A DNA stretch of 64,000 bases from a virus, in the IMG/VR virus record IMGVR_UViG_3300046167_000825, positions 225,015-289,014 of that record, one strand, 5' to 3'. The notes beneath the pieces were generated by a model. It had not been told where the DNA came from, made no database searches, and saw only the letters and a list, made by a program, of their open reading frames with translations. Below, in pieces: positions 25,120 through 50,257 of this stretch (position 1 is the first letter of the stretch; each line of letters opens with the position of its first letter). Made by a program: the position numbers and the translations under genes.

Positions 25120-28050
25120 ATGTATGTCTTTTTGAAAAAAACGTGGAATGGTGCAGTTTATAGTCTCTCTCTGAGAGATGATGCTTTCATTCATTTCACA
25201 CCCCAAAGTAGAGCGAGAGAGATACTTGCCTCTGGTCGGTTACTGTTCAACCCTCCTTATAAGAAGTTTGGGATAGATTCCGTCACAGCCATCTCAACCT
25301 CTTTCGGGAGTGCTGTCGCTGGTGTGCAAACAACACACATTAAAGAAACACCCGATGACCCCATCGTTGCCCTTTGGTTCAAAACGAACACCCTCCCCCC
25401 GAAAATAAACTATCCCGAAGAAGTCTATTGGAGTTCGGACGTGGTTTTCACAAAGGTCAAACTTCTCACCAAGCGGGAGGGTCTCTCTATTCTCAGTCGG
25501 TCTAAGCCCCCAACAAAGGACGACTTCTCAGTGGTGTATGAAGGTTCACCTTCTCATAAACAACTACGGACAGCCAAATACAAGAACAAGAAGACCGTCA
25601 AAGACCAAGACGGGAAAGACATGATCGTCTATGAGTATTCAGACCAGCAGATCAATAAGCGACATAAAGAGAAATCCCAAAAGGTCGAGAAAATCCGTCA
25701 GAATATAAACTCTTTGGAAACGCAAGTTCTCAAAGACCTCAAAAAAGAGGATACCCGTCAAGTAGCACTGGCGGTCGCCCTCATCAATCACACATACGAG
25801 CGTGTAGGGAACGATGATAGTGCTTCCAATGGTCACTATGGGGTAACGGGGTGGAAGAAGAAACATTTGTCTTTCAAGGGAAGCAAAGCCTTCCTCTCAT
25901 ACACGGGTAAGAGTGGTGTTCGTCATAATAAAGAGGTCGATGACAAGGTGTTGGTGTCAGCCCTCCGAGAGATATCGAAAGGTTTGAAAGATGACGATGT
26001 TCTTTTGTCAGACATTAAAGCCCCCGATGTCAATGAGTATCTCAACCAGTATGGGATCACAGCGAAAGACATGCGAGGTTACCATGCCAACAGAGAAATG
26101 CAAGAACGCTTGAAAGCCCTCCGAGAGGAAAGGGGCGAACTACCGAAGGACAAGAAAGAGAAGGACAAGATTCTTAAAGAGGAGTTTAAGGAAGCCCTCA
26201 ATGGAGCAGCGAAAGCCGTTGGTCATGAAGAAGCAACATTAAGAGGGCAGTACTTAGTCCCCCATTTGGAAGATACCTTTATGAAAGATGGCACAGTGAT
26301 AACCACTTTGAAGAAAGCACATATATCAAGAATCGCCACGAGAGTCTTCGGTACAAAAACAGAAAATGAAAAGATGGATGAGGAAGCCGATAGATTGGTG
26401 AAGAAACAACCCAAAAGTAAACCACCTCGCAAAGACCGTCAGCGAAGAAGAATCGACATAGGGGATAAGGACACCACTGAGGACAAGGATTTGAACTCAA
26501 AGGATATGTCGATGAACTACAAGGTGATTGGTGGTTCGTTGGGTGGTGTCATAACGAGAGTTGCTTCTCGTTATATGCTGCTCTCTCGGCTATCCGAGAG
26601 ATATCTGTCAGCGACCACTGAAATTGTGGAAACACCCAATCAAAAAGACACCGATAAGAAGGAAAAAGAGGACAAAAAAAAAGAGTTAGTTCGGAAGAAA
26701 GAAACCGAAGCGTGGGATAAGTTCACGGGGGAAAAAATCAAAGACCCCGAATCCAAAAGAGAAGTTTCGTGGGGTACTTTCCAGAAGAAACACCCCAAAG
26801 ATGCTCAGAAAATCCGTAACAAGTTTCGGACAGACTTTGAGGAATCCTTTAAGGAAGACCAAGTCAATAAAGAAAATGAACAAGCCCAGAAACTAGATAG
26901 ACGGCTCACCGAAGAAGAACTGGCAGAAGTTGATAATATGGTGGAGGAGGTGGTTAACCTCAATGGGCGTGAGATACGCCTCCCATTCGACACAGATGAC
27001 CGTGTTCGTAGTGTTTCGATGGCTCTTGAAGAACCAAAAAGAGATGATGAAACTGTTGAGGACTACAACTCTCGTAAGGCAGAAGAGATTTCTAAGTCTA
27101 TTAGAGGGATGGATACCAAAGCCCTCCAGCAGTTGTGGGATAGTGGGATGATTGATAAGAGTGACCCTCGTGTCAATGATGCGATAGATACCATGATGTC
27201 TATGGATGCAATGGGGGATGTTGTGGGTCGTCCTTTATCGGAGTCTGAAGCCAAAGCCATAGAAGATTTCTATTCTGCTATGCTGACGGAAACCATTAAG
27301 GTCGAGCATTTTGGTAGCGATAAAGAGGAAGGGAAGAGTTTCATTGCTGATTTCGTGGAGGGAGCGAAGAACTCAGCAGTGGAGGCTCTTAAAGAATCTG
27401 AGGATGCCGATTTAGGTGCAGTCATGAAAGATTATCTGTCTAATGCTACGACCAACAAGGAAAAGAAGACACTCAAAATCCACCACATCACAAAAGAGTT
27501 CATGTCAAAGGAACAGAAGGAGGCATTGAAAAGCCTAGAAGAATCTCAGAAGAAAGTGGAGTCCATTCGGAAAGAGAAGCAAACCCAAATGGATCAACTA
27601 TCCGAGATTGATAAAACTCTCTCGACTGAAGATATCAGTGATGAGGACAGAGAACAACTAGAAACGGATAAGGCTTCCCTTCAAAAGAGTGTTGATAGCC
27701 AAGAGGGGCTTCTGAAATCTGAGATGGAAAATCAACAATCCCTCACAGAAAAAACACAACCTAGTTCAGAGAACTTACAGAAGGCACTGGATAAAATGAT
27801 TCAGAAACTCCCAAAAGAAATCCAAAAAGAATATAAGGATTTCGGGAACACAGAGGAAATGATTGAAAAGGTCTTTGAACTCACTCAAGCAGAAGCCTTG
27901 AAGAAGTATGAGGAGATAATTGAAAACTCTAGCATGCCCCCCGAAGAAAAAAAGAAAGCCCTAGAAAGAGCCAAAGACCCTAATTTTGATCCAGAGGGAG
28001 CGTTGGCTGGTATGATGTCAGAGAGTGACGACATCGAAAATGAGATATAA
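25120..28050 (+). CDS. topoisomerase IB fused to long coiled-coil region, 976 aa
   Basis: Residues about 1-125 form an unassigned N-terminal domain (FIHFTPQSRAREILASGRLL). Residues about 200-390 match the type IB topoisomerase core: TYERVGNDD (R228), SYTGKSGVRH (K264), AKDMRGYHAN (R319), and GHEEATLRGQYLVP (H369, nucleophile Y378). The H-to-Y spacing of 9 equals that of the vaccinia enzyme. After that comes a highly charged linker, the tag-like RVASRYMLLSRL (from residue 480), and about 480 residues of acidic coiled coil. It should nick and relax DNA. Its size, its tag and its place before capsid assembly genes suggest a virion or head-core protein. ATG 25120 follows GAAGGAA. Confidence 0.8.
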   Translation: MYVFLKKTWNGAVYSLSLRDDAFIHFTPQSRAREILASGRLLFNPPYKKFGIDSVTAISTSFGSAVAGVQTTHIKETPDDPIVALWFKTNTLPPKINYPEEVYWSSDVVFTKVKLLTKREGLSILSRSKPPTKDDFSVVYEGSPSHKQLRTAKYKNKKTVKDQDGKDMIVYEYSDQQINKRHKEKSQKVEKIRQNINSLETQVLKDLKKEDTRQVALAVALINHTYERVGNDDSASNGHYGVTGWKKKHLSFKGSKAFLSYTGKSGVRHNKEVDDKVLVSALREISKGLKDDDVLLSDIKAPDVNEYLNQYGITAKDMRGYHANREMQERLKALREERGELPKDKKEKDKILKEEFKEALNGAAKAVGHEEATLRGQYLVPHLEDTFMKDGTVITTLKKAHISRIATRVFGTKTENEKMDEEADRLVKKQPKSKPPRKDRQRRRIDIGDKDTTEDKDLNSKDMSMNYKVIGGSLGGVITRVASRYMLLSRLSERYLSATTEIVETPNQKDTDKKEKEDKKKELVRKKETEAWDKFTGEKIKDPESKREVSWGTFQKKHPKDAQKIRNKFRTDFEESFKEDQVNKENEQAQKLDRRLTEEELAEVDNMVEEVVNLNGREIRLPFDTDDRVRSVSMALEEPKRDDETVEDYNSRKAEEISKSIRGMDTKALQQLWDSGMIDKSDPRVNDAIDTMMSMDAMGDVVGRPLSESEAKAIEDFYSAMLTETIKVEHFGSDKEEGKSFIADFVEGAKNSAVEALKESEDADLGAVMKDYLSNATTNKEKKTLKIHHITKEFMSKEQKEALKSLEESQKKVESIRKEKQTQMDQLSEIDKTLSTEDISDEDREQLETDKASLQKSVDSQEGLLKSEMENQQSLTEKTQPSSENLQKALDKMIQKLPKEIQKEYKDFGNTEEMIEKVFELTQAEALKKYEEIIENSSMPPEEKKKALERAKDPNFDPEGALAGMMSESDDIENEI

Positions 28051-28111
28051 TCTCATGTCTCATTCAAAATATATTCAAACAAAATAAATAATCATTCTAT
28101 ATCAAACACTA

Positions 28112-28122
28112 TATTGTCGATA
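28112..28122 (+). promoter_or_regulatory. TATTGTCGATA late-promoter-like motif
   Basis: TATTGTCGATA lies about 52 bases before the acidic core-protein ATG. It is a member of the TTCGATA family that recurs before structural genes. Confidence 0.45.
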
Positions 28123-28173
28123 GCCCTCAGAGGGGTTCTTATGACAATTTTATCTTATTGGGAGGCTTATACC

Positions 28174-28839
28174 ATGAAAAAATTCGCTACACGGGCAATT
28201 GTTGCTGATCTAGACAACCTTGCTGATCTTTTCCAAAACGCTGGTTCTGAACTCGGTGTTCCAACTCGTATCGCTATGGATTTCGCATATCGTTGTGACC
28301 TTTTGTCTGATGTCATCGAAAAATTGGCTGGTGACGAAGAAGCAGAAGAGGAAGAGGAAGAAGAAGAAGTAAAAGAAGAAGAAACTGAACTAGAAAAGAA
28401 GGCTTTTGCTGCATTACAAACTTTATCTCGTCTTGCTTCTGAAGAAGAAGAAAAGGAAGAAGAGAAGGAAGAAGAGAAGGAAGAAGAAGCAGAAGAAGAG
28501 GCAAAGGAATCTTCTAAAAAGGCTACTTTGAAAGAACTTTCTCGTTTAATCAATCGTCTTGCTGGCGATGATGAAGAAAGCGAAGAAGAAGAAAAGGAAG
28601 AAGAAGCAGAAGAGGAAAAGGAAGAAGCAAAAAAAGAGGCTCGTCAAATAACAAAACGCCAAGCCCTTGCTACCCTTCTTCGTATTGCTGAAGAAGAAGA
28701 AAAAGAACTGGGACAACAAGAGGATCAAGCCCTTGAAACTGAAACTGATGAGCCTTATATGAAGGGCTTTTCTGAAGGTTCAAAGGATGTAGCCGAGGTT
28801 GCTAAGGCTGCTGCGACTTACCGTAAACGTCTTAAGTAA
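28174..28839 (+). CDS. Glu-rich head core/scaffold-like protein, 221 aa
   Basis: ATG 28174 is preceded by GGGAGG. The first 50 residues are helical (KKFATRAIVADLDNLADLF), followed by several poly-Glu runs separated by short helices (FAALQTLSRLAS, TLKELSRLINRLAGD, RQALATLLRIAEE). Extremely acidic proteins next to the prohead protease are typical of capsid scaffolds or T4-like internal core proteins cleaved during maturation. The repeated helix-acidic modules suggest internal duplication. No exact family is recognised. Confidence 0.65.
   Translation: MKKFATRAIVADLDNLADLFQNAGSELGVPTRIAMDFAYRCDLLSDVIEKLAGDEEAEEEEEEEEVKEEETELEKKAFAALQTLSRLASEEEEKEEEKEEEKEEEAEEEAKESSKKATLKELSRLINRLAGDDEESEEEEKEEEAEEEKEEAKKEARQITKRQALATLLRIAEEEEKELGQQEDQALETETDEPYMKGFSEGSKDVAEVAKAAATYRKRLK
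28340..28740 (+). repeat. GAA/GAG low-complexity tracts encoding poly-Glu
   Basis: Four GAA/GAG-rich blocks within the acidic core-protein gene encode Glu runs separated by short helical modules. They are coding low-complexity repeats, not a CRISPR array: there are no conserved repeats with unique spacers. Confidence 0.8.
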
Positions 28840-28852
28840 AAAGAGGTCTCCC

Positions 28853-29437
28853 TTGAAGAAACAATCTGCAAGATATGATCTTCTCGCTGAGGAGTTGTCC
28901 GTTGGGGATGCTGTCATCCCCATCGGTCAGCCCATTGGTGGTGTTGGTCGAATTACGAAAATCTATGTCGGCATTGGCATGGCAGATGTTCAATTCAATG
29001 GGGGTAATCGTAGGATTCCCGTTGAGGACTTGAAGTTTGTTGCTGAGGAGGGATATTCTTTTGCTCCCGATCACGACACAACTGCTGGTGGAGAGATTGA
29101 TGAAGAACCCTTTGGTTCTCGTGAACTCTCAGTTCAACCACCTCATGAGGCTTTCACACCCGTGTTGAATGATATGTTCTATGAACAGACTCTTCCAACA
29201 AAGGTCGCCCAACGCTTTGTGAAAAAAGCATTGTATTGGGCTGGTCGTGATCGTAAATATCGAGCCACGAGATCCGAGTGTGGTGCTTCCTATCTATGTC
29301 CAAAGTGTGTAGACCCCATTGTGATGAAGAAAGCCATCTACAAACGGTTAGAGGGTGCTTCCGAGCGTCTGTGGGGTTGCCCCTCTTGTATGTTCTTAAT
29401 CAAGGACACTGACATTGTGCGTTGGGGGGGTGAATAA
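28853..29437 (+). CDS. virion-type protein with SH3-like region and zinc cysteines, 194 aa
   Basis: The first in-frame start after the previous stop is TTG 28853, with AGAGG upstream. Residues 15-60 (LSVGDAVIPIGQPIGGVGRI, MADVQFNGGNRRIPVEDLKF) look SH3-like. A helix TKVAQRFVKKALYWAG resembles the RVAxRYL tag. Two CxxC pairs (YLCPKC and WGCPSC) form a likely zinc site. It lies between the acidic protein and the prohead protease, so an internal head role is plausible. Confidence 0.65.
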   Translation: MKKQSARYDLLAEELSVGDAVIPIGQPIGGVGRITKIYVGIGMADVQFNGGNRRIPVEDLKFVAEEGYSFAPDHDTTAGGEIDEEPFGSRELSVQPPHEAFTPVLNDMFYEQTLPTKVAQRFVKKALYWAGRDRKYRATRSECGASYLCPKCVDPIVMKKAIYKRLEGASERLWGCPSCMFLIKDTDIVRWGGE

Positions 29438-30849
29438 TGGCATTTATGAAATATGCTTCTGCTCTTGTGGTTTCTCCCGAAGCCAATCAAAGAACTTGGG
29501 GTGGTGTTCGCACTGCCTCTAGTAATACAGCCAATCTGGTTGGTCAAGCCGAGAAGATTTTCGGTGGGAAGTTCAATCCCTCTGATTATCTTTTAACACA
29601 TTGTACTATTGTGGCTTCTGTTGATACAGATGATGCTCCCAATGTAAAACTCGGTTCTGTCACTGAGAATGGTAAGAAGATCAATCGTAAGTATTCTAAC
29701 TATCTCATAACTCCTTCGACATCTAAGTATGTGAATAACAACGGAGATTCTTGGGATCGTGATGTTCTGTTGAAGTCTTATCAAACATTTGTTGGTAGTC
29801 ATAACTTCCAAGAGCATGTTCAGATTGAGGACTTGTCGAAGGGTCGTATCATTGATGCCGTTGCTCGTGATGTCGGGGAATCTATTTATGTGGATATCCT
29901 AGTTGCGACAGACCGTAAGCACGCCCAGTTGGTTGAAGATATCCAGAGTGGTCGTTTAGGCACATTGTCTATGGGATGTACAGTCGATAGCACCATTTGC
30001 ACCAAGTGTGGGAATGTGGCAGTCGATGACACTGAGTTCTGTGACCATGTGAAGTATGAAAAACGAAACACTTTTATTGATAACAGTGGCAAGAAAAGAA
30101 TAGTGGCTGAGTTGTGTGGTCATACCGATATGGGCGACACGGCTGGAGTGACATTCATAGAAGCCTCTTGGGTTGCTGTACCCGCCTTTACTGGTGCAGT
30201 AATGCGAAATATTTTAACGGCAGACGAGGTTAGTTCGGATGTAGTTCGTAAAGCGAACGAGATTCTTTCAGTGCCTCCAGCCGAATGGTCAGACGAAGCC
30301 CAAAAGAAAGTCGCACGGAATGTGGTGTCTTTCGGTTTCGATGACGAAGAAGAAGATGAGGGTGGCGATAGCGAACCCACATCCCCTATTGATGAATTAG
30401 AAGATGAGATGGTATCAATGGTGAAGAAACGAGTTCTTCAACGGCTTAAATCCGAAATGTCCCCCAAAGAGGAGGCAAAGAAAGATGCACCAAAGCCCGA
30501 AGATAGTACCACTTATCAAAATGATACAGTGATCAAAGAAGGCACACTAAGAAAGGCTCACGCTATGGGTCAAAAACTTGGTGTTCTTCAAGGGATCGCA
30601 AAGGTTTCTCACACCAGAGAAGATTTTATTGATGGTATTGCTCTCCTTGATTATGAGAGGGGTTCAAAAACATCGGTATCTGTTTATCGTGCCAGCCTAA
30701 AGGTCGGTTCGGTATCAAAGTACGCCACACTGAAAGGTTTCTTGCTTGCTAGTAAGAAGGCTCTCGGTGGTACGATGACTAAATCTGAGGTTACTCAGAT
30801 GATTCGACTCGCTCGATTGCTTGACTTTTGGTCAGCACAAAAACATTAA
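29437..30849 (+). CDS. prohead core/maturation protease
   Basis: The 470-residue protein has a conserved-looking core with FVGSHNFQEHVQ (candidate catalytic His122 or His127), IYVDILVATDRKHAQL and LGTLSMGC (candidate Ser178), followed by a zinc-like motif ICTKCGNVAVDDTEFCDH (C188, C191, C202, H204). The pattern matches large-phage prohead proteases related to T4 gp21, which cleave scaffold and capsid proteins during head maturation. The acidic middle and basic C-terminus may be self-processed. Acidic core proteins flank it on both sides. The start overlaps the previous stop. Confidence 0.75.
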   Translation: MAFMKYASALVVSPEANQRTWGGVRTASSNTANLVGQAEKIFGGKFNPSDYLLTHCTIVASVDTDDAPNVKLGSVTENGKKINRKYSNYLITPSTSKYVNNNGDSWDRDVLLKSYQTFVGSHNFQEHVQIEDLSKGRIIDAVARDVGESIYVDILVATDRKHAQLVEDIQSGRLGTLSMGCTVDSTICTKCGNVAVDDTEFCDHVKYEKRNTFIDNSGKKRIVAELCGHTDMGDTAGVTFIEASWVAVPAFTGAVMRNILTADEVSSDVVRKANEILSVPPAEWSDEAQKKVARNVVSFGFDDEEEDEGGDSEPTSPIDELEDEMVSMVKKRVLQRLKSEMSPKEEAKKDAPKPEDSTTYQNDTVIKEGTLRKAHAMGQKLGVLQGIAKVSHTREDFIDGIALLDYERGSKTSVSVYRASLKVGSVSKYATLKGFLLASKKALGGTMTKSEVTQMIRLARLLDFWSAQKH

Positions 30850-30882: not shown

Positions 30883-31911
30883 ATGCGTAGAAGCAGACTT
30901 ACTTGGAATAAAAAGGCAGATAATGCCCCCGCTACCCCAAATGAGGGGTATGACCATCCAGCAGATCAAGGACAACAACCCGTTGAGAAATACTTCATTG
31001 ACAACGATGGAAACGGTGTTGGTTCAGAACCTTCAGATTTCGCAGAAGATGTTCACCAACCACCTTATAACAAAGGTGACCACCCAGCGACTCCACACGA
31101 GGGACACGATCACCCAGCGATGAAACAAGCCGCTCGTGATATCCGTGCTTCTGTTGAGCGTAAAGCATCTAAATGTATTCGTATCGCACAAGCAACACTC
31201 GGAAAAGGTGCTTCTATTGAAGACTTAGAAGATCAAGCATTGGCATTCATGAATATGGCTGATGATGATGTTGCTGCAACTTTGGATCGTATGTCAGAAA
31301 TGGAAGCGTACCAAATGGCAGAAGAACCAACTGCTACTTCAATGTTCGCAGAAGAAGATTCTGAACTAGAAGGTTTGATGGCTGAGTTCATGGCAGAAAT
31401 CGAATCAGATGAACACGAAAGTACAGAAGAAGCAATGCTTTCTGAAATGCTTGCTCAAGAAGAAGCCGAAGAAACAATGGGCGAAGAAGAAATAATGCTT
31501 TCTGAAATGCTTGCCGAAGAAGAAATGGCTAACCAAAATGCTCCAGAACACTTTGAAGCAGAAGAAGAAGAAGCAATGGGTGATGAGTTAATGCTTGCCG
31601 AAGAAGGTCTTGATGCTATGGGACTTGATGACGGTATGGGCGATGACGAATTGCTTGCTGGATTGTTCGCTGGTAAGTTCGCTGGTGAAGAAGAAGCCGA
31701 AGAAGAAGAAGCAGAAGAAGAAGCAGAGGAAGAAGAAAAAGAAGCAGAAGAAGCAGCCGCTTCTAAGAAAGCATCTCGCCTTCGTCCCCGTGCTCGTAAA
31801 GCATCAAAGGGAGTTAAGACTCTTGGAAATGTTTCTAAAACAGCCTCTTCAGAAATGAACGAACTGTCAAAGTTGTGGGAAAGTGCTCCTAACATCAGTG
31901 ACTTGTTCTAA
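30883..31911 (+). CDS. acidic scaffold/internal core protein, 342 aa
   Basis: AAGGAG precedes ATG 30883. After a polar N-terminus with HP-rich motifs (EGYDHPADQG, EGHDHPAMKQ) the protein becomes strongly acidic. It has repeats of the type MLSEMLAQEEAEE and MLSEMLAEEE, a poly-Glu tract, and a basic C-terminal tail (SRLRPRARKASKGVKTL) that could bind capsid or DNA. This is the expected pattern of a phage scaffolding protein, and it sits directly upstream of the capsid genes. A terminator follows. Confidence 0.7.
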   Translation: MRRSRLTWNKKADNAPATPNEGYDHPADQGQQPVEKYFIDNDGNGVGSEPSDFAEDVHQPPYNKGDHPATPHEGHDHPAMKQAARDIRASVERKASKCIRIAQATLGKGASIEDLEDQALAFMNMADDDVAATLDRMSEMEAYQMAEEPTATSMFAEEDSELEGLMAEFMAEIESDEHESTEEAMLSEMLAQEEAEETMGEEEIMLSEMLAEEEMANQNAPEHFEAEEEEAMGDELMLAEEGLDAMGLDDGMGDDELLAGLFAGKFAGEEEAEEEEAEEEAEEEEKEAEEAAASKKASRLRPRARKASKGVKTLGNVSKTASSEMNELSKLWESAPNISDLF

Positions 31912-32124: not shown

Positions 32125-32775
32125 ATGGCTTTACTTGGACAAGCGAGTGGTGCGTTTACAGAAAGTTCTTCATCTTTACGGATTCTACATGTTGGTATCC
32201 GAAACACTGTCGGTGTTATTACAGATGAGGCTTTCGAGCAAACTAACCCTCCCGTACTTTCTGCATCTGGTGCTGGATCTACCATCTCAGATCAAGTATC
32301 TACAACAATCTTCGGAGTTCTCTCTGGATCTGTTGCTTTCACTCGACCAGACATTGACGAAAATGTAATCGGTGGCCCAGCGGCTACTGCTGCTTTGTTG
32401 CTTTCTGCTGGATGTCGACCACTTGGTGTATTCATTAACCACGCTGCTGGATATTCTTTCGAGAACACACCCGCGGCTGCTTCTAACAAGTGTCCTTATG
32501 TTTCTGCACAAGGTTGCTATGCAAACTCTTTGTTTGAAACCAACATTATCACTAATGGTGGAACTACTGGTACTGCCGTTGCTGCTGTTGCTACTGTACC
32601 AGTTACTGCTTATGCTGCTGGACAAAACTTGGTTGCTTCTGTTAATGGTTACTTGACCAACGAAGCCGCTGACGGATATGAAGCGACACAAGGTGGAACT
32701 AATACTATTATCGGAATCGTGAAGATGGCCCCAGATAATACTCAAGATGAACTCGTTTACGACCAACGCATTTAA
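32125..32775 (+). CDS. probable capsid decoration/head protein, 216 aa
   Basis: AAAGGAGAAA precedes ATG 32125. The protein is Ala/Thr/Gly-rich and beta-patterned, without charged clusters, as in head decoration or stabilisation proteins. It lies 13 bases before the major capsid gene, with a terminator and a late-type promoter motif upstream. Codons are strongly skewed to GCT for Ala and GGT/GGA for Gly, as expected for very high expression. The exact family is not recognised. Confidence 0.65.
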   Translation: MALLGQASGAFTESSSSLRILHVGIRNTVGVITDEAFEQTNPPVLSASGAGSTISDQVSTTIFGVLSGSVAFTRPDIDENVIGGPAATAALLLSAGCRPLGVFINHAAGYSFENTPAAASNKCPYVSAQGCYANSLFETNIITNGGTTGTAVAAVATVPVTAYAAGQNLVASVNGYLTNEAADGYEATQGGTNTIIGIVKMAPDNTQDELVYDQRI

Positions 32776-32788
32776 GGAGGAGACTACT

Positions 32789-33658
32789 ATGAGCGTATCA
32801 AATGCTGTGAAGCAAAAAATCATTTCTGATTATATCAAGACTCCTCAAGGGCGTGCGAAACTTGCAGCGTCTATGACTCAACCATTACGTTTGCGTAGAG
32901 ATTACGCATCGGTTGGTCGTAAGACATTTCTTGTTGAACAACTGCCAGACGGAGCGTTGCCAATTTATGACAAAGATCCAGATGTAACTGCGTATGTGGT
33001 TGGTGAAGAAGGACAAAACATCCTTGCAATCACTAAGCCAAGACGTGTTATCTTTCCTTTGTTTGAGATTGCATCTAACCCCGAAATCCCTTTGACACAA
33101 ATCAAAGAAAGACGATTCGACCTTATTGAGCGTGCTCAAGATTTGGCTCGTGCCCAAATCCAAGCGGCAGAAGATGAGCGAGTATTCTCTACTCTTGATG
33201 CTGTTGCTCAGAACGGTTTCGATTCTGTTGGAAACCAAAACCCAGACATCCCAGTTGTTGCTCCAGTTACTGGTGCAGTCCTTGCTGATGCTTTTGCGTT
33301 AATCGAACGCCATGACCTTCGTGTTGCACGAATCTTCATGAACGCTCGTGACTATGCAGATTTGCGTAAGTTCGGTCGTGACATCTTGGATATCGAATCT
33401 CAGCGTGACTTGTTGAAGACTGGTCTTATGGCTACTCTTTGGGGTGCTCAGATCATCACTTCTCGTATCGTTCCCGTTGGAACAGTATATGTTGCTTGTG
33501 AGCCAGAGTTCTTTGGTCGCATGCCAGTTCGTACTGAGTTGACTGTATTGTCTGCTGATGATCCAAAGGCTCGTACTATTGGGTTCTCTGTATTCGAGAA
33601 TATCGGTATCGGTTGTTTCAATCCTCGTGGATTGGTTCGATTGTCTATCACTCGATAA
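32789..33658 (+). CDS. major capsid protein, HK97 fold
   Basis: ATG 32789 follows TTAAGGAGGAG. The 289-residue protein has an N-terminal helical part (NAVKQKIISDYIKTPQGRAK) and a core that fits the HK97 fold: a spine-like helix ERRFDLIERAQDLARAQI, then DAFALIERHDLRVARIFMN and a C-terminal FSVFENIGIGCFNPRGLVRL. It lies downstream of scaffold and protease, and a strong terminator follows. It would form the icosahedral shell. Confidence 0.8.
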   Translation: MSVSNAVKQKIISDYIKTPQGRAKLAASMTQPLRLRRDYASVGRKTFLVEQLPDGALPIYDKDPDVTAYVVGEEGQNILAITKPRRVIFPLFEIASNPEIPLTQIKERRFDLIERAQDLARAQIQAAEDERVFSTLDAVAQNGFDSVGNQNPDIPVVAPVTGAVLADAFALIERHDLRVARIFMNARDYADLRKFGRDILDIESQRDLLKTGLMATLWGAQIITSRIVPVGTVYVACEPEFFGRMPVRTELTVLSADDPKARTIGFSVFENIGIGCFNPRGLVRLSITR

Positions 33659-40137: not shown

Positions 40138-40524
40138 ATGAAGAAAAAAGCAACAAGTTCCTACGCTTCTTGGGCGTTATTAAGTGAGGGTGTTTCCTCT
40201 GCGAGAGTTGAAGCCTATCGGTTAAGACACCTCGTCAATCGTGCTATGGCTCTCATTGAGCAATCTGTTGCCAAAGACCATCTGTATCAAGTGGCTGGAG
40301 ATATCATTATGGGTGTGCCTTCCCGTCTTGATAGGATAGAACAAACACTTGATAGAACTTCTTACGCTTTAGCGAAGATGGGGGATGCTCATCTCAAACA
40401 ACGCCTTCCTATCCACGATAGAGAAATGGTGGAAGAAAGTATCCAACGGGCTGACTTATTGAATCCGTCTTTTTCAAAGATGTCTTCTAATGTCGCTCAA
40501 AGATTCTTGGATACCGATAAATGA
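40138..40524 (+). CDS. helical protein with C-terminal NVAQRFL tag-like end, 128 aa
   Basis: The start lies four bases after a terminator T-run. The protein is helical (RVEAYRLRHLVNRAMALIEQ, DRIEQTLDRTSYALAKMGD) and ends in SSNVAQRFLDTDK, a variant of the recurring RVAxRYL peptide. It overlaps the next gene. Probably an internal virion protein. Confidence 0.6.
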   Translation: MKKKATSSYASWALLSEGVSSARVEAYRLRHLVNRAMALIEQSVAKDHLYQVAGDIIMGVPSRLDRIEQTLDRTSYALAKMGDAHLKQRLPIHDREMVEESIQRADLLNPSFSKMSSNVAQRFLDTDK

Positions 40525-41537
40525 AAAAAGAAGCCCTTTCTAAATTACCCAGCGAACTGTCGGGTCAGAGAACCTTTGTACGGGATGAATCTAGTCGTGG
40601 GACACCCACAGACACAGATAGAACCCCTCAGAGTGTCTTGCCTCCCGATAAGGCGACACCTCGTTCTCCTTCTCGTGAAGATAGTAATAAGAAAGACAAT
40701 GTTTCTCATCTCGGCCCCACTTATTTCAATGTTCCCGATGGGACAGCCAAAGAAATCAAGCATAGGACTGTTCCAGCAGAGGGTGAGCAGTATGGGCATC
40801 CTTATCAGAATGGAGTGAATACTCTCAGACATCGTGTCGATCAGCGAACTGGCTCAGAGGAACTAGCCGAATCTATTGAAGCCATCTCCGATGTTTATCT
40901 CGGAGAGTTTGACGAACTAGATGACGACTTTGATGATGAAGGACTCACAGCCGAAGAAATAGAGGCGACTTCTCGGAGATGGAAAGGGAAACGCAGACCA
41001 TCAAAAGGTCGTGTGAGAACACGCCCTAGAAATGTCCGAACTAGATCAAAAAGATTGAGAAATCGTTCGAGAGGCAACAAAAGAAACAAGTATCAATACA
41101 ACTCCAAAACTAAGAAAGTAGAGAGAGTTAAACGGAAGCCGAAAGAGATACTCAATCGTCAGAAATATGACAGAGATTATAATCGAAGACAACGGAAACG
41201 GAATCCATCCACTCGAAAAAGACAGAGAGGATATTACAAAAAGAGAGCCACTGATATGAACTTGGAAGCAATACAAAGTGTGATGGCAGACATGGGTTTG
41301 TACGAAATCCGACCACCGAAGACAGACGAGTTGTATGTCCCAAGTGGTGTGCCTTACTCCCCCTCTGGTGGGAATGGCTATTGGAAAAGAGACCTCCCCA
41401 ATAGAAACCGAAAGCCCAGTGAGAGGCAAGACACCTCAAGAGAGCCGTCAGACATCGGAAACTCATCGAGAGTCGTACCTCAAGGGCAGTATGTCAAAGC
41501 GAGTATACGAGTGGCTTATCGCTTCTTGAATGGGTGA
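40521..41537 (+). CDS. basic virion-type protein with C-terminal RVAYRFL tag, 338 aa
   Basis: The N-terminal 110 residues are polar and disordered. An acidic patch (EFDELDDDFDDEG) is followed by an extremely basic Arg/Lys segment (RRWKGKRRPSKGRVRTRPR and following) that should bind DNA. The protein ends ASIRVAYRFLNG, a clear copy of the RVAxRYL tag. A DNA-binding internal head protein packaged through the tag is a reasonable guess. No named family. Confidence 0.6.
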   Translation: MKKEALSKLPSELSGQRTFVRDESSRGTPTDTDRTPQSVLPPDKATPRSPSREDSNKKDNVSHLGPTYFNVPDGTAKEIKHRTVPAEGEQYGHPYQNGVNTLRHRVDQRTGSEELAESIEAISDVYLGEFDELDDDFDDEGLTAEEIEATSRRWKGKRRPSKGRVRTRPRNVRTRSKRLRNRSRGNKRNKYQYNSKTKKVERVKRKPKEILNRQKYDRDYNRRQRKRNPSTRKRQRGYYKKRATDMNLEAIQSVMADMGLYEIRPPKTDELYVPSGVPYSPSGGNGYWKRDLPNRNRKPSERQDTSREPSDIGNSSRVVPQGQYVKASIRVAYRFLNG

Positions 41538-43921: not shown

Positions 43922-44566
43922 ATGTTAACGGCTATGGGCGATGTAATGAGGACTGCTTACGAGCGTGGTTGGATAACCACCCGTGATGGCAATATCTCAG
44001 TGATGATGAAAGAGAGAGATACTTTATACATCACACCGTCTGGTTGGAGAAAGACTATTCTTCATCCCGAACATATTGTTCGTATCAAGACCAATGGTGA
44101 CCTTCTGAATCTGTCTGAGTCACAGAACGCAAGTGGCGAACTAGAGATGCACTGGCTTCTCCAAAAGTCTTACGCCAAGACCAGATCAGTAGTCCATCTT
44201 CATCCGACATATACAATTGCGGCTATGTTGAGGGGTTTCGATCTCCAAAAACTTTCAAATCATTTCCCAGAACTATCAAGATATACGAGGGTTGGTCGGA
44301 CAGTGCCTATTCTTCCCGTGATATCCCCCGAACTAGCCGTTGCGACAGCCCAAGCCTTTAGGGTGACCGACAAAGGGGGTGTTTCTTACGACATCGTTGG
44401 TCAGAGGGGTCATGGTGTTTGTGCAGTGGCGAAGAATCCTTGGGATGCCTTTGAACACATTGAGAGATTGGAACACATTTGTCAGATTACATTGGCGAGT
44501 GGGGTCGAACCTAGTTTTTTTGAACCCATCCCTCCTCAGAGAAATGCCACGAGTACCTTCTTATGA
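43922..44566 (+). CDS. class II aldolase/adducin-family protein
   Basis: ATG 43922 is chosen because an upstream in-frame extension would read through the tRNA. The 214-residue protein has TRDGNISVMM, YITPSGWRK, NASGELEMHWLL and the zinc ligands VVHLHPTY (H92, H94) and RGHGV (H164), the pattern of fuculose/ribulose-phosphate aldolases and epimerases. It could act as an auxiliary metabolic enzyme on host sugar phosphates; the substrate cannot be told. Its stop overlaps the next start. Confidence 0.8.
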   Translation: MLTAMGDVMRTAYERGWITTRDGNISVMMKERDTLYITPSGWRKTILHPEHIVRIKTNGDLLNLSESQNASGELEMHWLLQKSYAKTRSVVHLHPTYTIAAMLRGFDLQKLSNHFPELSRYTRVGRTVPILPVISPELAVATAQAFRVTDKGGVSYDIVGQRGHGVCAVAKNPWDAFEHIERLEHICQITLASGVEPSFFEPIPPQRNATSTFL

Positions 44567-44958
44567 AAATCGCTAAAACCATCCCAGAAATCCTATCTCA
44601 AACCGACAAGAAGATTCTTGGTCGTGCTAGGGGTGTGAATCCAACACTCAAGGGTCAAGAGGGGAAAGTGGTTCAGTATGAGGTGAAGGGTTCAAAGGCT
44701 TACACTATTGATGTGGAGTTTCGAGGAAATCATGTGAAGGTTCGGTGTTCGTGTGATGCTTTTGTTTTTCAAGGGAGTGAATATCACGCCAACAAGCAAA
44801 AGTTTCTGTATGGCAAAGCGAAGGGGAACTTAGCCGAACCCACTAAGCGTGACCCAGAGGGAAAGAACTTGGTATGTAAGCATATCGTGGCAGTATTTGA
44901 TAACATTGTGGGTAGTAGTATACAGCGAGTCGCTTCTCGTTATTTGTTTGATACTTAA
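44563..44958 (+). CDS. SWIM zinc-finger protein with C-terminal RVASRYL tag, 131 aa
   Basis: VRCSCDAF (C62, C64) and LVCKHIVAVF (C105, H107) form a SWIM finger with a 40-residue insert. The last 12 residues, SIQRVASRYLFDT, carry the RVASRYL peptide, identical in six of seven positions to the one inside the topoisomerase IB fusion. The start overlaps the aldolase stop (CTTATGA). SWIM domains bind DNA or protein. The tag suggests that the protein enters the virion. Confidence 0.75.
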   Translation: MKIAKTIPEILSQTDKKILGRARGVNPTLKGQEGKVVQYEVKGSKAYTIDVEFRGNHVKVRCSCDAFVFQGSEYHANKQKFLYGKAKGNLAEPTKRDPEGKNLVCKHIVAVFDNIVGSSIQRVASRYLFDT

Positions 44959-46131: not shown

Positions 46132-46145
46132 TTATTCGTTCGATA
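46132..46145 (+). promoter_or_regulatory. TTATTCGTTCGATA late-promoter-like motif
   Basis: Near-identical to 40081-40094 including the upstream TCTCG, 52 bases before ATG 46197. Confidence 0.55.
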
Positions 46146-46196
46146 AAGTACTCTTATTAACGAATACCCCTATCAAAAATATTCTAGGAGAAAAAA

Positions 46197-46680
46197 ATGG
46201 CTGAAATCTTTGTTGTAAATAAATCAGCGGGACTTAATGGAGCGTTGGTTTCTGACCTTCCCGTAACCAATTCTGCCCCCGTTGCTCGTCAAATCCAATT
46301 CTATATCGCTTCTTTGTACAGTGGTTACGAAGCAGAAATCACTGAGTATCTGACTGCTGTCGGTGCGACTGCTGTTTATGCAGACATCGCTGGTGCAGTT
46401 GCTGCTGGAACTGCTCTTGATGCTGCTTCAATTGGTAAGGAACTACGGAACTGGTTCTGTTGAAGATGTTCTTCGTATCCTTGTTGGTGCTAACAGTTCT
46501 GATGGTATGATTGAAGAATCTGCAAATCTTGGTAACCACCGAATCTTGGGTGGAACTACTCGCAGAATCTATACCCGTGACCGTGTTGATGCTTCAATTC
46601 ATGAAGGCTTCCTTCGTGCTCAATTGGATGCTGGATCAATCATTATCTATTCACTTGACGGCTCTGTCGCTCACTCATAA
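46197..46680 (+). pseudogene. virion-type protein with a +1 frameshift (paralogue of 46694)
   Basis: Residues 1-80 (AEIFVVNKSAGLNGALVSDL) and the rest (NYGTGSVEDVLRILVGANSS, GNHRILGGTTRRIYTRDRVD, GFLRAQLDAGSIIIYSLDGS) both align with the intact neighbour at 46694-47203, but in different frames. The shift is next to GGTAAGG at 46434-46440; removing one G would restore a 160-residue protein. AGGAG and a late-promoter motif are intact, so this may be a sequencing error, recent inactivation, or frameshifting. Confidence 0.75.
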
Positions 46681-46693
46681 TTAGGAGAATCCA

Positions 46694-47203
46694 ATGGCTG
46701 AGATTTTTGTAGTAAATAATAGTTCTGCTCTTGTAGGGCAATATGTGTCTGACCTTCCAGTTGTCAATGAGACACCCGTATCTCGCCAGATTGGGTTCTA
46801 CTTGCCAGCAGTGGCTTCATCTTATCAAGCGACTTTGAGTGCATATCTTACTGATACTGCTGCTGTTTTCGGTGCTGATGCTGCTGATGCAGACGCTGGT
46901 GCGACTGCTATCATCGGATTGATTGGTGGGGATATCACGGAAGCCACAATCAACACTGCGTTCGGTCTTGGTGGGGATGTTCTTAACGGAACAGCAAGCA
47001 TTGAAGAGATCATTCGTATCCTTGTGGGAACAGACAGTGCTTTCACTGAAACTGGTATTGTTGGGAATCACCGTTTACTCGGTGGGAAACGCAGAATATA
47101 CTTGCGTGACCGTGTTGAGGCTTCTCTTGGAGAAGGTTTCCTCCGTACATTCTCGGATGCTGGTGACTTGGTAGTGTATCTTGCAGACGGTACTGTTGTG
47201 TAA
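46694..47203 (+). CDS. probable virion protein, 169 aa, intact tandem copy
   Basis: Paralogue of the preceding broken gene (AEIFVVNNSSALVGQYVSDL, GNHRLLGGKRRIYLRDRVEA, DAGDLVVYLADGTVV). The N-terminus is beta-rich, the middle Ala-rich. TTAGGAG precedes the ATG. It has no known domain, but GCT/GGT-biased codons and a terminator downstream suggest an abundant virion protein. Confidence 0.65.
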   Translation: MAEIFVVNNSSALVGQYVSDLPVVNETPVSRQIGFYLPAVASSYQATLSAYLTDTAAVFGADAADADAGATAIIGLIGGDITEATINTAFGLGGDVLNGTASIEEIIRILVGTDSAFTETGIVGNHRLLGGKRRIYLRDRVEASLGEGFLRTFSDAGDLVVYLADGTVV

Positions 47204-47208
47204 GGTTC

Positions 47209-47222
47209 AATAACCATTCGAT
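47209..47222 (+). promoter_or_regulatory. AATAACCATTCGATA late-promoter-like motif
   Basis: A family member with CATTCGATA, 49 bases before ATG 47271, again with a terminator between it and the gene. Confidence 0.4.
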
Positions 47223-47226
47223 AAAC

Positions 47227-47256
47227 AAAGGGTGTTGAGAAATCAACGCCCTTTTT
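47227..47256 (+). terminator. rho-independent terminator
   Basis: AAAGGGTGTTG and CAACGCCCTTT (one wobble) plus a T run end the tandem virion gene pair. Confidence 0.85.
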
Positions 47257-47270
47257 TGTGGAGAAAATAC

Positions 47271-47534
47271 ATGTACCCCAACAAACGACAACAAGTACAA
47301 GACGGACGATATCGAACAAGTGACCTATACTATGCAGCCTACTTGAAGGTGGCTGGTGTTCAATTGATAGACACCGAGAGGGAAGGTCATCGTGTTTTCT
47401 TTGTGTTTGAACACACCCCCACAATCAAAGACCTCAAAACCGAATACTTCAATCGCACCTCGAAAGTTCCAGCCCTCACATACGCTGACGAAATCCGAAC
47501 GATGAAATCATTAACCCACATGGGTTCTCGTTGA
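47271..47534 (+). CDS. DUF5659-like protein, third relative, 87 aa
   Basis: YRTSDLYYAAYLKVAGVQL, RVFFVFEHTPTI and a C-terminal YADEIRTMKSL follow the DUF5659 pattern also seen at 34244 and 34480, with lower similarity. GTGGAG precedes ATG 47271. Function unknown. Confidence 0.65.
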   Translation: MYPNKRQQVQDGRYRTSDLYYAAYLKVAGVQLIDTEREGHRVFFVFEHTPTIKDLKTEYFNRTSKVPALTYADEIRTMKSLTHMGSR

Positions 47535-47927
47535 ATCCTTTGTCGCAGACGGGTATCCAGTGGAGTTGAAACGCTAGACCCACTATCCCCCTACCAAGAA
47601 TCTAGGAATTAAGTCTTAAAAAAGACCCTTGATATTCTAGTTCGCAAAAAACCCTTTCTGGCTCATCAGAAGGGGTTTCTTTTTTGTGGGAAATCTTAAA
47701 TGCACATGGACAGTTTTTGACCTTGAGAAAAACCTCGCAACAATGCCGATTCTTTCGTGGTAACCTCAGATTCCAGATGGAAACAATGTCTTTCGGTTGG
47801 GACTTTAGTTCGCACCCCCTTCAGACACTCTAGGAGGCAGATATCTCTCGTGGATAGTTCGAGGATTCACCTCAAATAAATATCAGAACTGACACTGGGA
47901 ACTTGGAAGATAAACTCTGAGGAACAT
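47535..47927. other. non-coding region of about 390 bases
   Basis: No credible gene is visible on either strand. It includes a long hairpin terminator (47649-47685), a possible bulged hairpin around 47550-47590 (AGTGG/CCACT plus GGG/CCC), and small inverted repeats such as TTCC-AGAT-GGAA (47771-47782) and GAGG-ATTCA-CCTC (about 47861). It could encode a small RNA. No promoter of the described classes is seen. Confidence 0.5.
47649..47685 (+). terminator. rho-independent terminator
   Basis: AAACCCTTTCTG and CAGAAGGGGTTT (12 bp, one wobble) and a T run. It lies 115 bases after the DUF5659 gene, so it could end a small RNA or that operon. Confidence 0.85.
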
Positions 47928-47962
47928 AAAAAAAAGGTGGGAACTAGAAGCCCCACCTTTTT
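47928..47962 (-). terminator. bidirectional terminator
   Basis: AAAAAGGTGGG and CCCACCTTTTT pair perfectly, with A and T runs on both sides. It lies directly after the minus-strand membrane-peptide gene, which it would terminate. Confidence 0.85.
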
Positions 47963-47972
47963 AGAAAATCAA

Positions 47973-48113
47973 TCAACCTTTTCTCGCTCTAATTATTTCA
48001 ATCAAAATAATCAAAATGAGCATTGTGGTGAAGGGGTGCTTATGGAAGCACCACCCCACCACTGAAACCACAAGGAAAGTCACTATTAGCAACACTAGGA
48101 GAATAACATACAT
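47973..48113 (-). CDS. small membrane protein with two hydrophobic segments, 46 aa
   Basis: Reading the minus strand from 48113 gives a Val/Leu/Ile-rich peptide (YVILLVLLIVTFLVVSVVGW), a short loop with His/Cys, and a second segment (TTMLILIILIEII) ending in basic RARKG. A weak AGGTGA site precedes the ATG. It lies between the HAD gene and a terminator on the same strand. It may be a holin-like or other host-membrane peptide; no family is recognised. Confidence 0.5.
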   Translation of the reverse strand: MYVILLVLLIVTFLVVSVVGWCFHKHPFTTMLILIILIEIIRARKG

Positions 48114-48137
48114 CACCTAGTGTGGGAAATAAAATAA

Positions 48138-48719
48138 TCATTGAAGTCCTTTAATAAAATCTTTCAATGCCGTGAGGTCTCCTCCTTCGACCCCCGTCCA
48201 AAGGAAACCATGCCCCCCAGCCTTGTTCCATTCTTTTATGGTGGTGTGGTGATCATCAATCAATACGGCATTGGGCTTACAGAAAGAAACCTTCTCAGAA
48301 CGAGGAACGACATTAACAACAGCCTCCGACCCCAACACCTCACGGACATATCTCGTCTTGTCCTCCTCAGCATACATACCAATGGGAGCAGTGAGAAACT
48401 CATAATAGAAGCCACTGTTCCTCACCCAATCCCATAGCCCATTGTGTTCCATTGTTGGGAGGTCGTAGAACCACCCCTCTTGACACCCTATCTTATAGAG
48501 TAGGGGTAAGACTACTTTATGATTTAACTCGTCTTTCTGGAGGGGGTAAGCCTTTCCGAAGACCTCAATGTATTTCCGTAATCCTTTCTTGAGGCTCTTG
48601 CTTTCAAGGGCTTCCATCTCTGTGTCGGTAAGGGTCGCCAGTCGTTTAATCTCTGTGACCATAGCCAAGCCAAAGTCACAGACACAGCCATCCATATCTT
48701 GATAAATTGTGATAGACAT
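48138..48719 (-). CDS. 5'(3')-deoxyribonucleotidase-like HAD hydrolase
   Basis: The 193-residue protein starts with the HAD nucleophile motif YQDMDGCVCDF (D8, D10). It has a long helical cap and the late motif AVLIDDHHTTIKEWN near residue 160. This pattern matches the NT5C-type deoxyribonucleotidases that phages use to manage dNMP pools. GGAGGA precedes the ATG 48719 on the minus strand. A TTTCCGTATATG motif lies upstream. Confidence 0.8.
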   Translation of the reverse strand: MSITIYQDMDGCVCDFGLAMVTEIKRLATLTDTEMEALESKSLKKGLRKYIEVFGKAYPLQKDELNHKVVLPLLYKIGCQEGWFYDLPTMEHNGLWDWVRNSGFYYEFLTAPIGMYAEEDKTRYVREVLGSEAVVNVVPRSEKVSFCKPNAVLIDDHHTTIKEWNKAGGHGFLWTGVEGGDLTALKDFIKGLQ

Positions 48720-48746
48720 AAAAAATCCTCCTTTGTTTGTCCAAAT

Positions 48747-48757
48747 CATATACGGAA
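48747..48757 (-). promoter_or_regulatory. TTTCCGTATAT promoter-like motif (minus strand)
   Basis: Read on the minus strand, TTTCCGTATAT lies about 28 bases before the HAD gene, in the same orientation. Confidence 0.5.
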
Positions 48758-48806
48758 AAAACTACTTCAATCAACCGTAATCTAAAACACTTTACCACCC
48801 CCATTA

Positions 48807-48864
48807 AAATAGGAATCTCTTCCCAATTCCCATGAATCCTTTTATATTCCTATTTCAATAGGAA
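48807..48864 (+). promoter_or_regulatory. mutually exclusive hairpins upstream of the 48878 gene
   Basis: AAATAGGAAT (48807-48816) can pair perfectly with ATTCCTATTT (48846-48855). The same middle strand can instead pair with ATAGGAA (48858-48864) to make a TTCCTAT-TTCA-ATAGGAA hairpin next to the ribosome site. Two alternative structures with shared sequence are typical of RNA switches or attenuators. Confidence 0.4.
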
Positions 48865-48877
48865 CAAGGAGATAGAC

Positions 48878-49318
48878 ATGGGGAACTCAAGCATTCGTGT
48901 GGCATATAGATATTTGACAGCACGAGGGAAAGCCAAGAAAGATGTTGGACACGGTGGGTTAGACGAATGGTTTTCTGGTCATGGCACTGGGAAGAACAAG
49001 AGTGAGGGTGAAGCCACTTGGGGTGATTGGGTGTCAATATCTCCCGTAGATAAAACCATAGAGAAAGAAGACGGCACAAAGAAGAAGATACAGAAAGGGG
49101 ATATCGTGGGGGACTGTGGTATCAGCAAAGACCCCGAATGGAAAGACACCACCAACAATGGCAAATCACCCTTGAAGTGTATGCCTCGTCAGAAAGCCCA
49201 CAAGATGGATAAGAAGGAAAGAGCCGAACTAGCCAAAGGGAAGCAGAAAGCAGAGAAGGGGAGCAAAGGGAAGAAACCCGTGAACACCCCCACTTTCAAG
49301 AAAGAAGATAAGAAGTAA
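48878..49318 (+). CDS. phage protein with N-terminal RVAYRYL tag, 146 aa
   Basis: ATG 48878 follows AAGGAG. Residues 5-12 read SIRVAYRYL, the tag motif. The main part (GGLDEWFSGHGTGKNKSEGE, WGDWVSISPVDKTI, GDIVGDCGISKDPEWKD, PLKCMPRQKAHKMDKKERA) is a distinctive conserved phage protein with two Cys, of unknown function. The C-terminus is Lys-rich. It ends only three bases before the convergent 311-residue gene, which carries an internal RVAYRFL. Confidence 0.7.
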   Translation: MGNSSIRVAYRYLTARGKAKKDVGHGGLDEWFSGHGTGKNKSEGEATWGDWVSISPVDKTIEKEDGTKKKIQKGDIVGDCGISKDPEWKDTTNNGKSPLKCMPRQKAHKMDKKERAELAKGKQKAEKGSKGKKPVNTPTFKKEDKK

Positions 49319-49321
49319 ATA

Positions 49322-50257
49322 TTACTTCCACCCCCCACCGAGTTCTTTGTATTTCGCCAAAGCCCACCCATTGGCGTAGGCTGAAGGATACTTGTTGAAG
49401 CCTTTACCCTCATTGGGGGCATTGACGGTTTTCCCACCTTCAGTGACCGACTTCAGTTCGCCCTTCGCCATCTGAATCATTTTATCCCACAGTTTCTGAT
49501 TGGTCGCTTCTGGTTTCTTTTCTTTCGACACCAAGAATCTGTAAGCAACTCGGACAGAGGCTTGTTTAACTTTGGGAGTGGCTTCCTTTGCGACCTTCTC
49601 TCTTGTTTTCAACCACTTGACTCCTTGTTGGAGATCCGTGAAGAAAATCCTATCCTTTCGCAGTAAACCTCTCGATTTTTTTGCTCTTATCTCAACATTC
49701 TCAAACTTCCGACCCGTCCATTCCCAAAGGTATTGGTTGCTCACAACAAGTTGGCGGGTGACCCTTCCATTCTCCCACACGGGGAGGCGAATAGATATGC
49801 TCCCTCCAGTTTTCTTGGCTTTCGCTTTGGATTTCATGATGGCATCTTTGTTGGATTTCTTCCATGCTTTGTACTTGGAGTTCGCTGAAGAAGAACTAAG
49901 TGCTGGATCATGACCCCAGTTCCGTAAAGATATCTCCCATTTGGACATCCCCGTGCTACCAACGGGTTGTCCGATTTTCCCACCGAGCATTCTCCCATTG
50001 AAACCATTCTCTTGGGCTGCATTATCAAAGTCGACATCTGACCACTCTTTAACGGGCTTTGATTTCCGTCTCTTGATACGATGAAGGGAATCCAAACCAC
50101 TTTGAATACCACCCTCATCTTTCGCTTTCGCTCTATTGAGAGAAGCCTCCAAACGGGCTGGGTTCTTCGCCCACTCATCGAGAGCATCTTGACTCATATT
50201 GATAAGCCCTTTCCATTTGTCGTATATCTCTTTTTTCTCTTTGTCAGATCGTGCCAT
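49322..50257 (-). CDS. 311-aa protein with internal RVAYRFL tag
   Basis: N-terminal part (MSQDALDEWAKNPARLEASL; GNGR-type VGSTGMSKWEISLRNWGHDP) resembles domains in phage and bacterial DNA-associated proteins but is not recognised with confidence. Residues about 160-225 are beta-rich. The tag ASVRVAYRFLVSKEK lies about 75 residues before the C-terminus, and the last block (WDKMIQMAKGELKSVTEGGK, NKYPSAYANGWALAKYKEL) is a conserved-looking motif. GGGAGA precedes the ATG. A cluster of three tagged proteins lies within 9 kb. Confidence 0.65.
   Translation of the reverse strand: MARSDKEKKEIYDKWKGLINMSQDALDEWAKNPARLEASLNRAKAKDEGGIQSGLDSLHRIKRRKSKPVKEWSDVDFDNAAQENGFNGRMLGGKIGQPVGSTGMSKWEISLRNWGHDPALSSSSANSKYKAWKKSNKDAIMKSKAKAKKTGGSISIRLPVWENGRVTRQLVVSNQYLWEWTGRKFENVEIRAKKSRGLLRKDRIFFTDLQQGVKWLKTREKVAKEATPKVKQASVRVAYRFLVSKEKKPEATNQKLWDKMIQMAKGELKSVTEGGKTVNAPNEGKGFNKYPSAYANGWALAKYKELGGGWK

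Follow-up and report, generated by a model that had tools for sequence, protein, structure and literature searches.

The capsid-targeting sequence (CTS) of phage T4 is an N-terminal peptide of about 10 residues (10-20 in PMC5694885) that is removed by gp21 (PMC9958956, PMC5694885). In the extracts of these papers one source assigns it to IPII and IPIII only and the other to internal head proteins generally (PMC9958956, PMC5694885). T4 packages an ADP-ribosyltransferase (ART), Alt, and P1 packages anti-restriction proteins (PMC5694885, PMC9958956, PMC9024508, PMC5512222; all papers are cited from extracts). The N-terminal packaging signal of P1 DarB lies somewhere in the first 30 residues, and its authors report no consensus among the Dar proteins (PMC9024508). 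Inner-head proteins of SPN3US carry long propeptides (PMC9024508, PMC5694885). Packaging and injection have been proposed for polyvalent proteins that contain ART domains (PMC5512222, PMC7824862). Here a short peptide carried by unrelated proteins, hereafter the tag, was analyzed in a 64,000-nucleotide stretch of a huge-phage genome (the window; IMG/VR record IMGVR_UViG_3300046167_000825, positions 225,015 to 289,014, or G000:C1:225015-289014). A preliminary description of the window had read the peptide, RVAxR(Y/F)L, as a movable address that might direct DNA-binding cargo into the head as the T4 CTS does.

Like the T4 CTS, the tag is a short peptide common to different proteins, and as in signals of the T4 and P1 type the same short peptide stands on unrelated proteins. 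The genome of the tagged clade encodes a prohead protease and a candidate scaffold, as that of T4 does, and an ART is found among the tagged proteins as Alt is in T4 heads. Unlike the T4 CTS, the tag can stand at either terminus or inside a protein; by the strict pattern one record has it on 14 proteins, and no cleavage site beside it is visible. In its logic the T4 analogy holds. Encapsulin cargo-loading peptides and microcompartment encapsulation peptides are short, terminal and often C-terminal, and load cargo into a protein shell; they belong to bacterial compartments and are likened to the tag by description, not by sequence. The P1 DarB signal is similar in that it sends anti-restriction cargo into the head (PMC9024508), although the tagged clade, unlike the P1 Dar proteins as extracted, has a clear consensus. 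Polyvalent proteins (ART-PolyVal and others) carry the same kind of cargo domains and are predicted to be packaged and injected; in contrast to the tagged clade, no common packaging peptide is described for them in the extract (PMC5512222). Six tag 7-mers were found printed nowhere in the literature searched, and topical searches, seen partly as extracts, gave no earlier description of such a tag (bioRxiv and most subscription papers lay outside the scope of both).

Unrelated proteins of one huge-phage clade carry the tag N-terminally, C-terminally or internally, several at the joints of fused domains. Five strong copies, RVAx(R)(Y/F)(L/M), were located between window positions 25120 and 50257, all within open reading frames (ORFs). 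The whole 289,014-base record contains 14 strict copies in 14 of 326 ORFs, 5 of them in this 25-kb span. Copies and variants are given below in window positions, followed by four copies in record positions.
26557 to 26577, plus strand: RVASRYM at residue 485 of 981 of a topoisomerase IB and coiled-coil protein (ORF 25105-28050)
29201 to 29221, plus strand: KVAQRFV, resembling the tag, in a conserved protein of the head cluster (ORF 28799-29437)
40489 to 40509, plus strand: variant NVAQRFL, 4 residues before the stop of a predicted helical hairpin protein (ORF 40138-40524)
41508 to 41528, plus strand: C-terminal RVAYRFL, 2 residues before the stop of an Arg-rich protein (ORF 40521-41537)
44926 to 44946, plus strand: C-terminal RVASRYL, 3 residues before the stop of a SWIM zinc finger protein (ORF 44563-44958)
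48896 to 48916, plus strand: N-terminal RVAYRYL at residue 7 of a small basic protein (ORF 48878-49318)
49532 to 49552, minus strand: RVAYRFL at a domain joint, residue 236 of 311 (ORF 49322-50257)
Record position 79108: C-terminal RVASRWL, 3 residues before the stop
Record position 142460: C-terminal RVANRFL, 3 residues before the stop
Record position 183838: C-terminal KVAYKWL, 6 residues before the stop
Record position 201538, minus strand: N-terminal RIAHRYL

The five clear copies of the preliminary description were all recovered in open frames, with the one placed at 48895 corrected by one base to 48896. The site of the topoisomerase IB copy was right, and its ORF starts at 25105 rather than 25120. 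Two of three weaker copies were retained (NVAQRFL at 40489, KVAQRFV at 29201). The third, RVASG at 18119 in a Dps-like protein, was discarded; the sequence reads RVASGAGHH.

The strict motif was defined as [RK][VI]Ax[RK][YFWH][LM] and was sought in eight huge-phage records (2,487 ORFs, 668,365 residues). These were the window's own record, where the motif had been noticed; LR745208, taken as its nearest relative; G002, G005 and G007, taken after a first seven-record DNA scan and not by its matches; and G008, G010 and G011, picked after DNA-pattern matches had been seen, so that the total is inflated. Not included were a 4-kb record, a record presumed to duplicate G005 and two that are almost identical to the window's own. 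ORFs were called greedily by length in pieces of up to 50 kb, so that starts and a few ends are approximate and boundary-crossing proteins are cut. The motif gave 56 matches in 54 of the 2,487 ORFs, compared with a mean of 0.93 and a maximum of 7 for 400 permuted-class motifs in the same records; the residue classes had been broadened to W and H after the first matches and are partly data-fitted, and the permutations share them. This search of other large-phage proteomes, a check named in the preliminary description, bore the observation out. Matches per record were 14 (own), 11 (G008), 9 (LR745208), 9 (G010), 4 (G005), 4 (G011), 3 (G007) and 2 (G002), and the five records not picked by matches account for 32 of the 56. 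Two jumbo phages with related capsid proteins, Bacillus phage G and Tunturi_5, gave 0 strict matches (243,688 residues, 1,029 ORFs). In 80 capsid-gene loci, a redundant set that was not de-duplicated, 22 matches were found against a mean of 0.66 in 300 permutations, one of which reached 55.

Scans with a narrower DNA pattern (R and Y/F only) gave 2 matches in the own record in the first version, and 13 in 7 records against 0 for the control, with 5 of the 7 records matching. In 21 further records 33 matches were found against 6 with a reversed control (12 of 21 records). Phage G, I3, Rctr197k and Tunturi_5 gave none (controls 0, 0, 2, 1), and LR745208 gave 3. A profile of the consensus was built from the 54 strict proteins; in the eight records these and a further 26, 80 in all, outscored every one of 1,029 control proteins. 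A relative of the major capsid protein is encoded by at least 531 IMG/VR stretches; the tagged clade is common. A scan of genome contigs returned three metagenome-assembled genome contigs with no clear host.

Chance matches to a permissive helix pattern might explain a few single cases that look accidental (in a 1,772-residue protein and a 105-residue minus-strand ORF), and a de novo count of terminal patterns did not place the tag first. As an account of the tag, chance is scarcely credible in view of the 56 matches against 0.93 expected, the terminal bias, the agreement of flanks and the lack of matches in phage G and Tunturi_5; applied to the full set it is refuted. The observation is real and larger than first noted.

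By place, 19 of the 56 matches are N-terminal, 16 C-terminal and 21 internal, with called starts approximate. N-terminal copies start no later than residue 20, a zone that holds 7.4% of all residues, and C-terminal copies end at most 12 residues from the stop (4.5%). Flanks outside the pattern were compared in 51 dissimilar windows. Alanine stands at -2 in 22 of 51 (background 7.2%, p = 2e-12) and at +8 in 16 (p = 4e-7); S occupies -3 in 14 windows and -1 in 13, and K occupies -4 in 12. The consensus K-[S/L/M]-A-S-R-V-A-S-R-[Y/H/F/W]-[L/M]-K-A spans about 12 residues and would form a short basic amphipathic helix, with residue preferences fading about 5 residues away from the 7-mer. Structure prediction gave the tag as a short helix detached from the folded part, at the low confidence expected of a tail or linker. 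In ORF 40138-40524 it is a separate short helix (residues 118-125, low confidence), and a fold search with the helical hairpin gave nothing at E 0.001 or better.

The tag-like copy of 28799-29437 lies in the linker between a predicted Tudor/SH3-like barrel and C-terminal CxxC pairs, with a helix predicted at residues 133-140 inside a low-confidence stretch. In the family alignment [RK]-V-A-x-x-[FY]-[VM]-K is kept in 8 of 12 sequences and V-A in 12 of 12. A fold search with the barrel gave Tudor/PWWP/KOW-like matches, none reaching E 0.001. This conserved copy, together with the frequency of fusions, would suit a recurring helix of a small shared domain that is shuffled among proteins and has a structural or oligomerising role without targeting. 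Such a role is decidedly unlikely: the preferences reach no further than some 5 residues from the 7-mer, C-terminal copies often leave 2-6 residues before the stop, too few for a domain, and the tag is predicted to be detached from the folded part.

Movement of the tag among proteins was examined with the tag masked. Sixteen tagged proteins from the window's record were compared, 14 with a strict copy and 2 with a weaker one, and showed no mutual homology (best E 0.01). Across the eight records the 54 tagged proteins fell into 28 groups, 18 of them single; the largest (16) includes five strict window proteins, joined only via multidomain proteins of other phages. One related pair was found within the record, in which L004 14648-16771, with the degenerate end RIATLWLA, matches its tagged neighbour (E 2e-6). 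In HAD_SAK_1 RNA-repair proteins the tag is C-terminal in G005 and N-terminal in G008 and G010, and the opposite end is tag-free in the G005 and G008 proteins. In the G010 protein the longest frame puts the tag at residue 66 and an inner ATG puts it at residue 7. G008 and G010 are close relatives, so their N-terminal tags may represent one event.

Several copies lie at joints. The topoisomerase IB label of 25105-28050 comes via its LR745208 homologue (46% identity; Pfam Topoisom_I, 2e-26), and a Pfam scan of the window protein itself gave no Topoisom_I match. The tag at 26557 lies at a probable fusion joint because the LR745208 protein stops close to that point. Past its tag, residues 252-311 of 49322-50257 match residues 7-67 of a different tagged G010 protein (E 5e-18). 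A small N-tagged G010 protein is fused in G008 behind two nucleotidyltransferase-like domains, with the tag at the joint. Residues 2-101 of 40521-41537 match residues 59-176 of a 787-residue G011 protein (E 5e-5), and the SWIM protein 44563-44958 matches the rear of the same protein (E 5e-12), which has a single C-terminal tag where the two window proteins have separate ones. Homologues of 48878-49318 in G008 and G010 are likewise N-tagged (KVAERYL, KVAQRYL). Members of the 40138-40524 family have a conserved helical hairpin and a variable linker, then KVAHRYL, RVTERYL, RVGARFL or RVSERWL before the stop; a G002 member ends in RIANRYM, and that of L081 carries RVAQRWT and then about 130 further residues. 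No tag was present in 3 of 11 aligned members (L128, L132, L133). The earlier claim of a movable address on non-homologous proteins is well supported by the unrelatedness of the 16 proteins, the switch of ends in the HAD_SAK family and the joint positions.

Two further observations were made on such proteins. Three proteins of G008 and G010 (L160 1617-2650 in G008; L167 879-2314 and L175 6306-6881 in G010) share a near-identical start, MKPYQRVA[S/L/T][R/K][Y/H], with divergent bodies, and recall internal-protein families. In LR745208 (L022 34201-35727) a HAD_SAK_1 RNA-repair domain is fused ahead of a topoisomerase IB domain; both the fusion joint and the C-terminus bear degenerate sequences resembling the tag.

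Pfam domains among tagged proteins were ART-PolyVal (LR745208, G008), HAD_SAK_1 (G005, G008), 2'-5' RNA ligase (LR745208, G005) and PolyA_pol (G005). A tagged G007 protein belongs to a C39-peptidase-like family defined by a protein of the window's record that has no strict tag. The SWIM match of 44563-44958 (E 0.00085, 19.3 bits) is just below the cut-off of 19.6, and most other tagged proteins scanned had no Pfam match. The DNA-binding cargo of the preliminary description was too narrow a class; ART, HAD RNA-repair, 2'-5' RNA ligase and nucleotidyltransferase domains are carried as well, and the Dps example fell away. Among 86 best matches to annotated Tunturi_5 proteins, the motif stands on two, ART-like and SWIM proteins. 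It was found on 0 of 83 homologues in other families (terminase, portal, protease, capsid, sheath, tail, polymerase, clamp loader, nucleotide enzymes and others). A motif that binds the sliding clamp (PIP-box-like) or the replisome would explain the terminal position and the aromatic-hydrophobic end; the phage encodes a clamp and a clamp loader, and topoisomerase IB and nucleotidyltransferase are DNA/RNA enzymes. This is highly improbable, since the tag is also carried by a C39-peptidase-family protein, ARTs and helical-hairpin proteins. The clamp-binding reading was rejected because the tag was absent from all 5 DNA polymerase homologues and all 7 clamp loader homologues examined.

Head genes of the window were located as follows.
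19750 to 21588, plus strand: terminase large subunit, no tag (phrog_2, 3.8e-21)
22167 to 23849, plus strand: portal protein, no strict motif (phrog_16240, 4.1e-32)
29437 to 30849, plus strand: head maturation protease, no tag (phrog_18299, 1.7e-13)
30883 to 31911, plus strand: candidate scaffold protein, Glu-rich with a conserved C-terminus, possible docking partner
32747 to 33658, plus strand: major capsid protein, no tag, about 49% identical to the Tunturi_5 major head protein

Three relatives encode the major capsid protein at 85-86% identity. The scaffold was assigned from its position, acidity and conserved C-terminus. The tagged topoisomerase IB gene sits between portal and protease; T4 has its core genes at the corresponding place. 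From the portal gene to about 17 kb beyond the major capsid gene lie 5 of the 14 strict copies. The scaffold, 28799-29437 and 32125-32775 were each present in six of seven relatives, the G007 fragment being without that region, and 15559-17631 in seven of seven. No homologue of these four was found in tag-free phage G or Tunturi_5, and they are putative docking candidates. A strongly acidic scaffold would be suited to docking a basic tag.

Scaffold candidates (59 matches in 80 loci) vary greatly in length; an N-terminal helix, ERKAAKCIRIAxxMLG, and a C-terminal tail, KTLGxVSKxASSEVxELSKLWESAPDVSKFF, are often kept. In the portal (residue 314 of 22167-23849) and those of G002, G005 and G007 an internal T-S-I-A-S-R-H-[M/L] is conserved, with S-M-I-S-D-R-H-M at that site in LR745208. 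The stretch surfaced in the first loose profile; it is non-strict and may be a coincidence. Between portal and topoisomerase, on the minus strand, a second SWIM-like protein (24228-24611, 0.0028) and an M48 peptidase-like protein (24683-25069, 0.0012) matched just below Pfam cut-offs; for neither was a homologue found in the nine other records compared.

We consider it somewhat probable that the tag is a prohead (capsid) targeting sequence usable at either end. The position among head genes, the nature of the cargo and the absence from shell, tail and replication homologues fit a prohead signal, and the virion-tag reading of the preliminary description is plausible. The helix would dock onto some part of the immature head that is specific to the clade, for which the acidic scaffold or a different core protein is the most plausible choice, and the docked protein would be enclosed as the shell forms. 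The cargo would stay with the packaged genome, be ejected into the next host and act there ahead of phage gene expression; the ejection step is suggested by the type of cargo and by T4 Alt and the P1 Dar proteins. A short label that works at either end would allow new cargo to be recruited by simple fusion.

The same sequence facts also fit an address for another place, with the peptide as a tether to a shared intracellular phage complex (a membrane, ribosome, host polymerase or replication factory). Helices that are basic and amphipathic often attach to membranes or acidic surfaces, and 9 of the record's 14 strict copies fall outside the window, which also counts against a prohead signal. Such a destination is rather unlikely, as several tagged genes and the conserved 28799 protein are located in the head cluster, and the ART and RNA-repair cargo resembles injected proteins (PMC5512222, PMC7824862).

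Further points weigh against prohead targeting. Signals of the T4 and P1 type are N-terminal, and 37 of the 56 copies lie elsewhere. Many homologues in the tagged families have no strict tag, G002 has just 2 strict matches, and the DNA pattern was absent from 9 of the 21 further records, one of them 205 kb long. RVADKFL of the 1,772-residue protein is not kept in two relatives and is probably due to chance, and the match in the 105-residue minus-strand ORF looks like chance too. The tag did not emerge distinctly when terminal three-residue patterns were counted de novo; among N-zone patterns C..CG came first and R.AS second, and in the C zone metal-binding patterns came on top with R.A.R and M...VA within the top ten (greedy ORFs include spurious frames of GC-rich records and repeated families). 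By eye, no constant acidic residue or protease site was seen beside the tag in the 51 windows. As a copy of the tag, the scaffold helix ERKAAKCIRIA was rejected, the best stretch of the profile lying elsewhere in four of four scaffolds. In a codon test of the 11 strict G008 tags, 8 had an aligned G010 stretch, one of these pairs being a 29%-identity paralogue, and 3 had none. Tags showed 16 synonymous and 7 amino-acid changes and flanks 52 and 60 (p = 0.066), which no more than suggests that the protein sequence is under tighter constraint in the tag than in its flanks. For members of the clade, neither a virion proteome nor a packaging assay was found. By function the tag would be best filed as a variant of capsid-targeting sequence, a putative membership since so many copies are not N-terminal.

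A different C-terminal signature was seen in a related phage. In Bacillus phage G (NC_023719, 352.5-371 kb and 26.1-33.1 kb; L205, L206, L189) the de novo terminal count led to 35 proteins with a Y-W-K-E-N-D-R-Y-L-x-K-I-L-like stretch, at most 8 residues from the stop in 33 of 35. With the stretch masked, 33 fell in one cluster; most of these form a tandem array, and a few lie immediately downstream of the capsid gene. The signature gave 0 matches in the tagged clade or Tunturi_5. At 52690-55469 the window has two adjacent HNH/homing-endonuclease proteins in tandem, of common PHROG families.

A short sequence code would bear directly on how jumbo phages select their many injected proteins. It is possible, in our judgement a shade short of evenly balanced, that an uncultured, widespread huge-phage clade loads proteins into the head by one short, position-independent peptide code. 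A code of this kind would yield a list of candidate injected effectors from the genome alone (14 strict copies in this record) and would offer a loading peptide tolerant of C-terminal fusion. For any gene, some 12 residues gained at one of its ends or at a joint between fused parts would then suffice to enter the injected arsenal, and the injected set, many proteins of unknown function included, would be readable straight from the genome.

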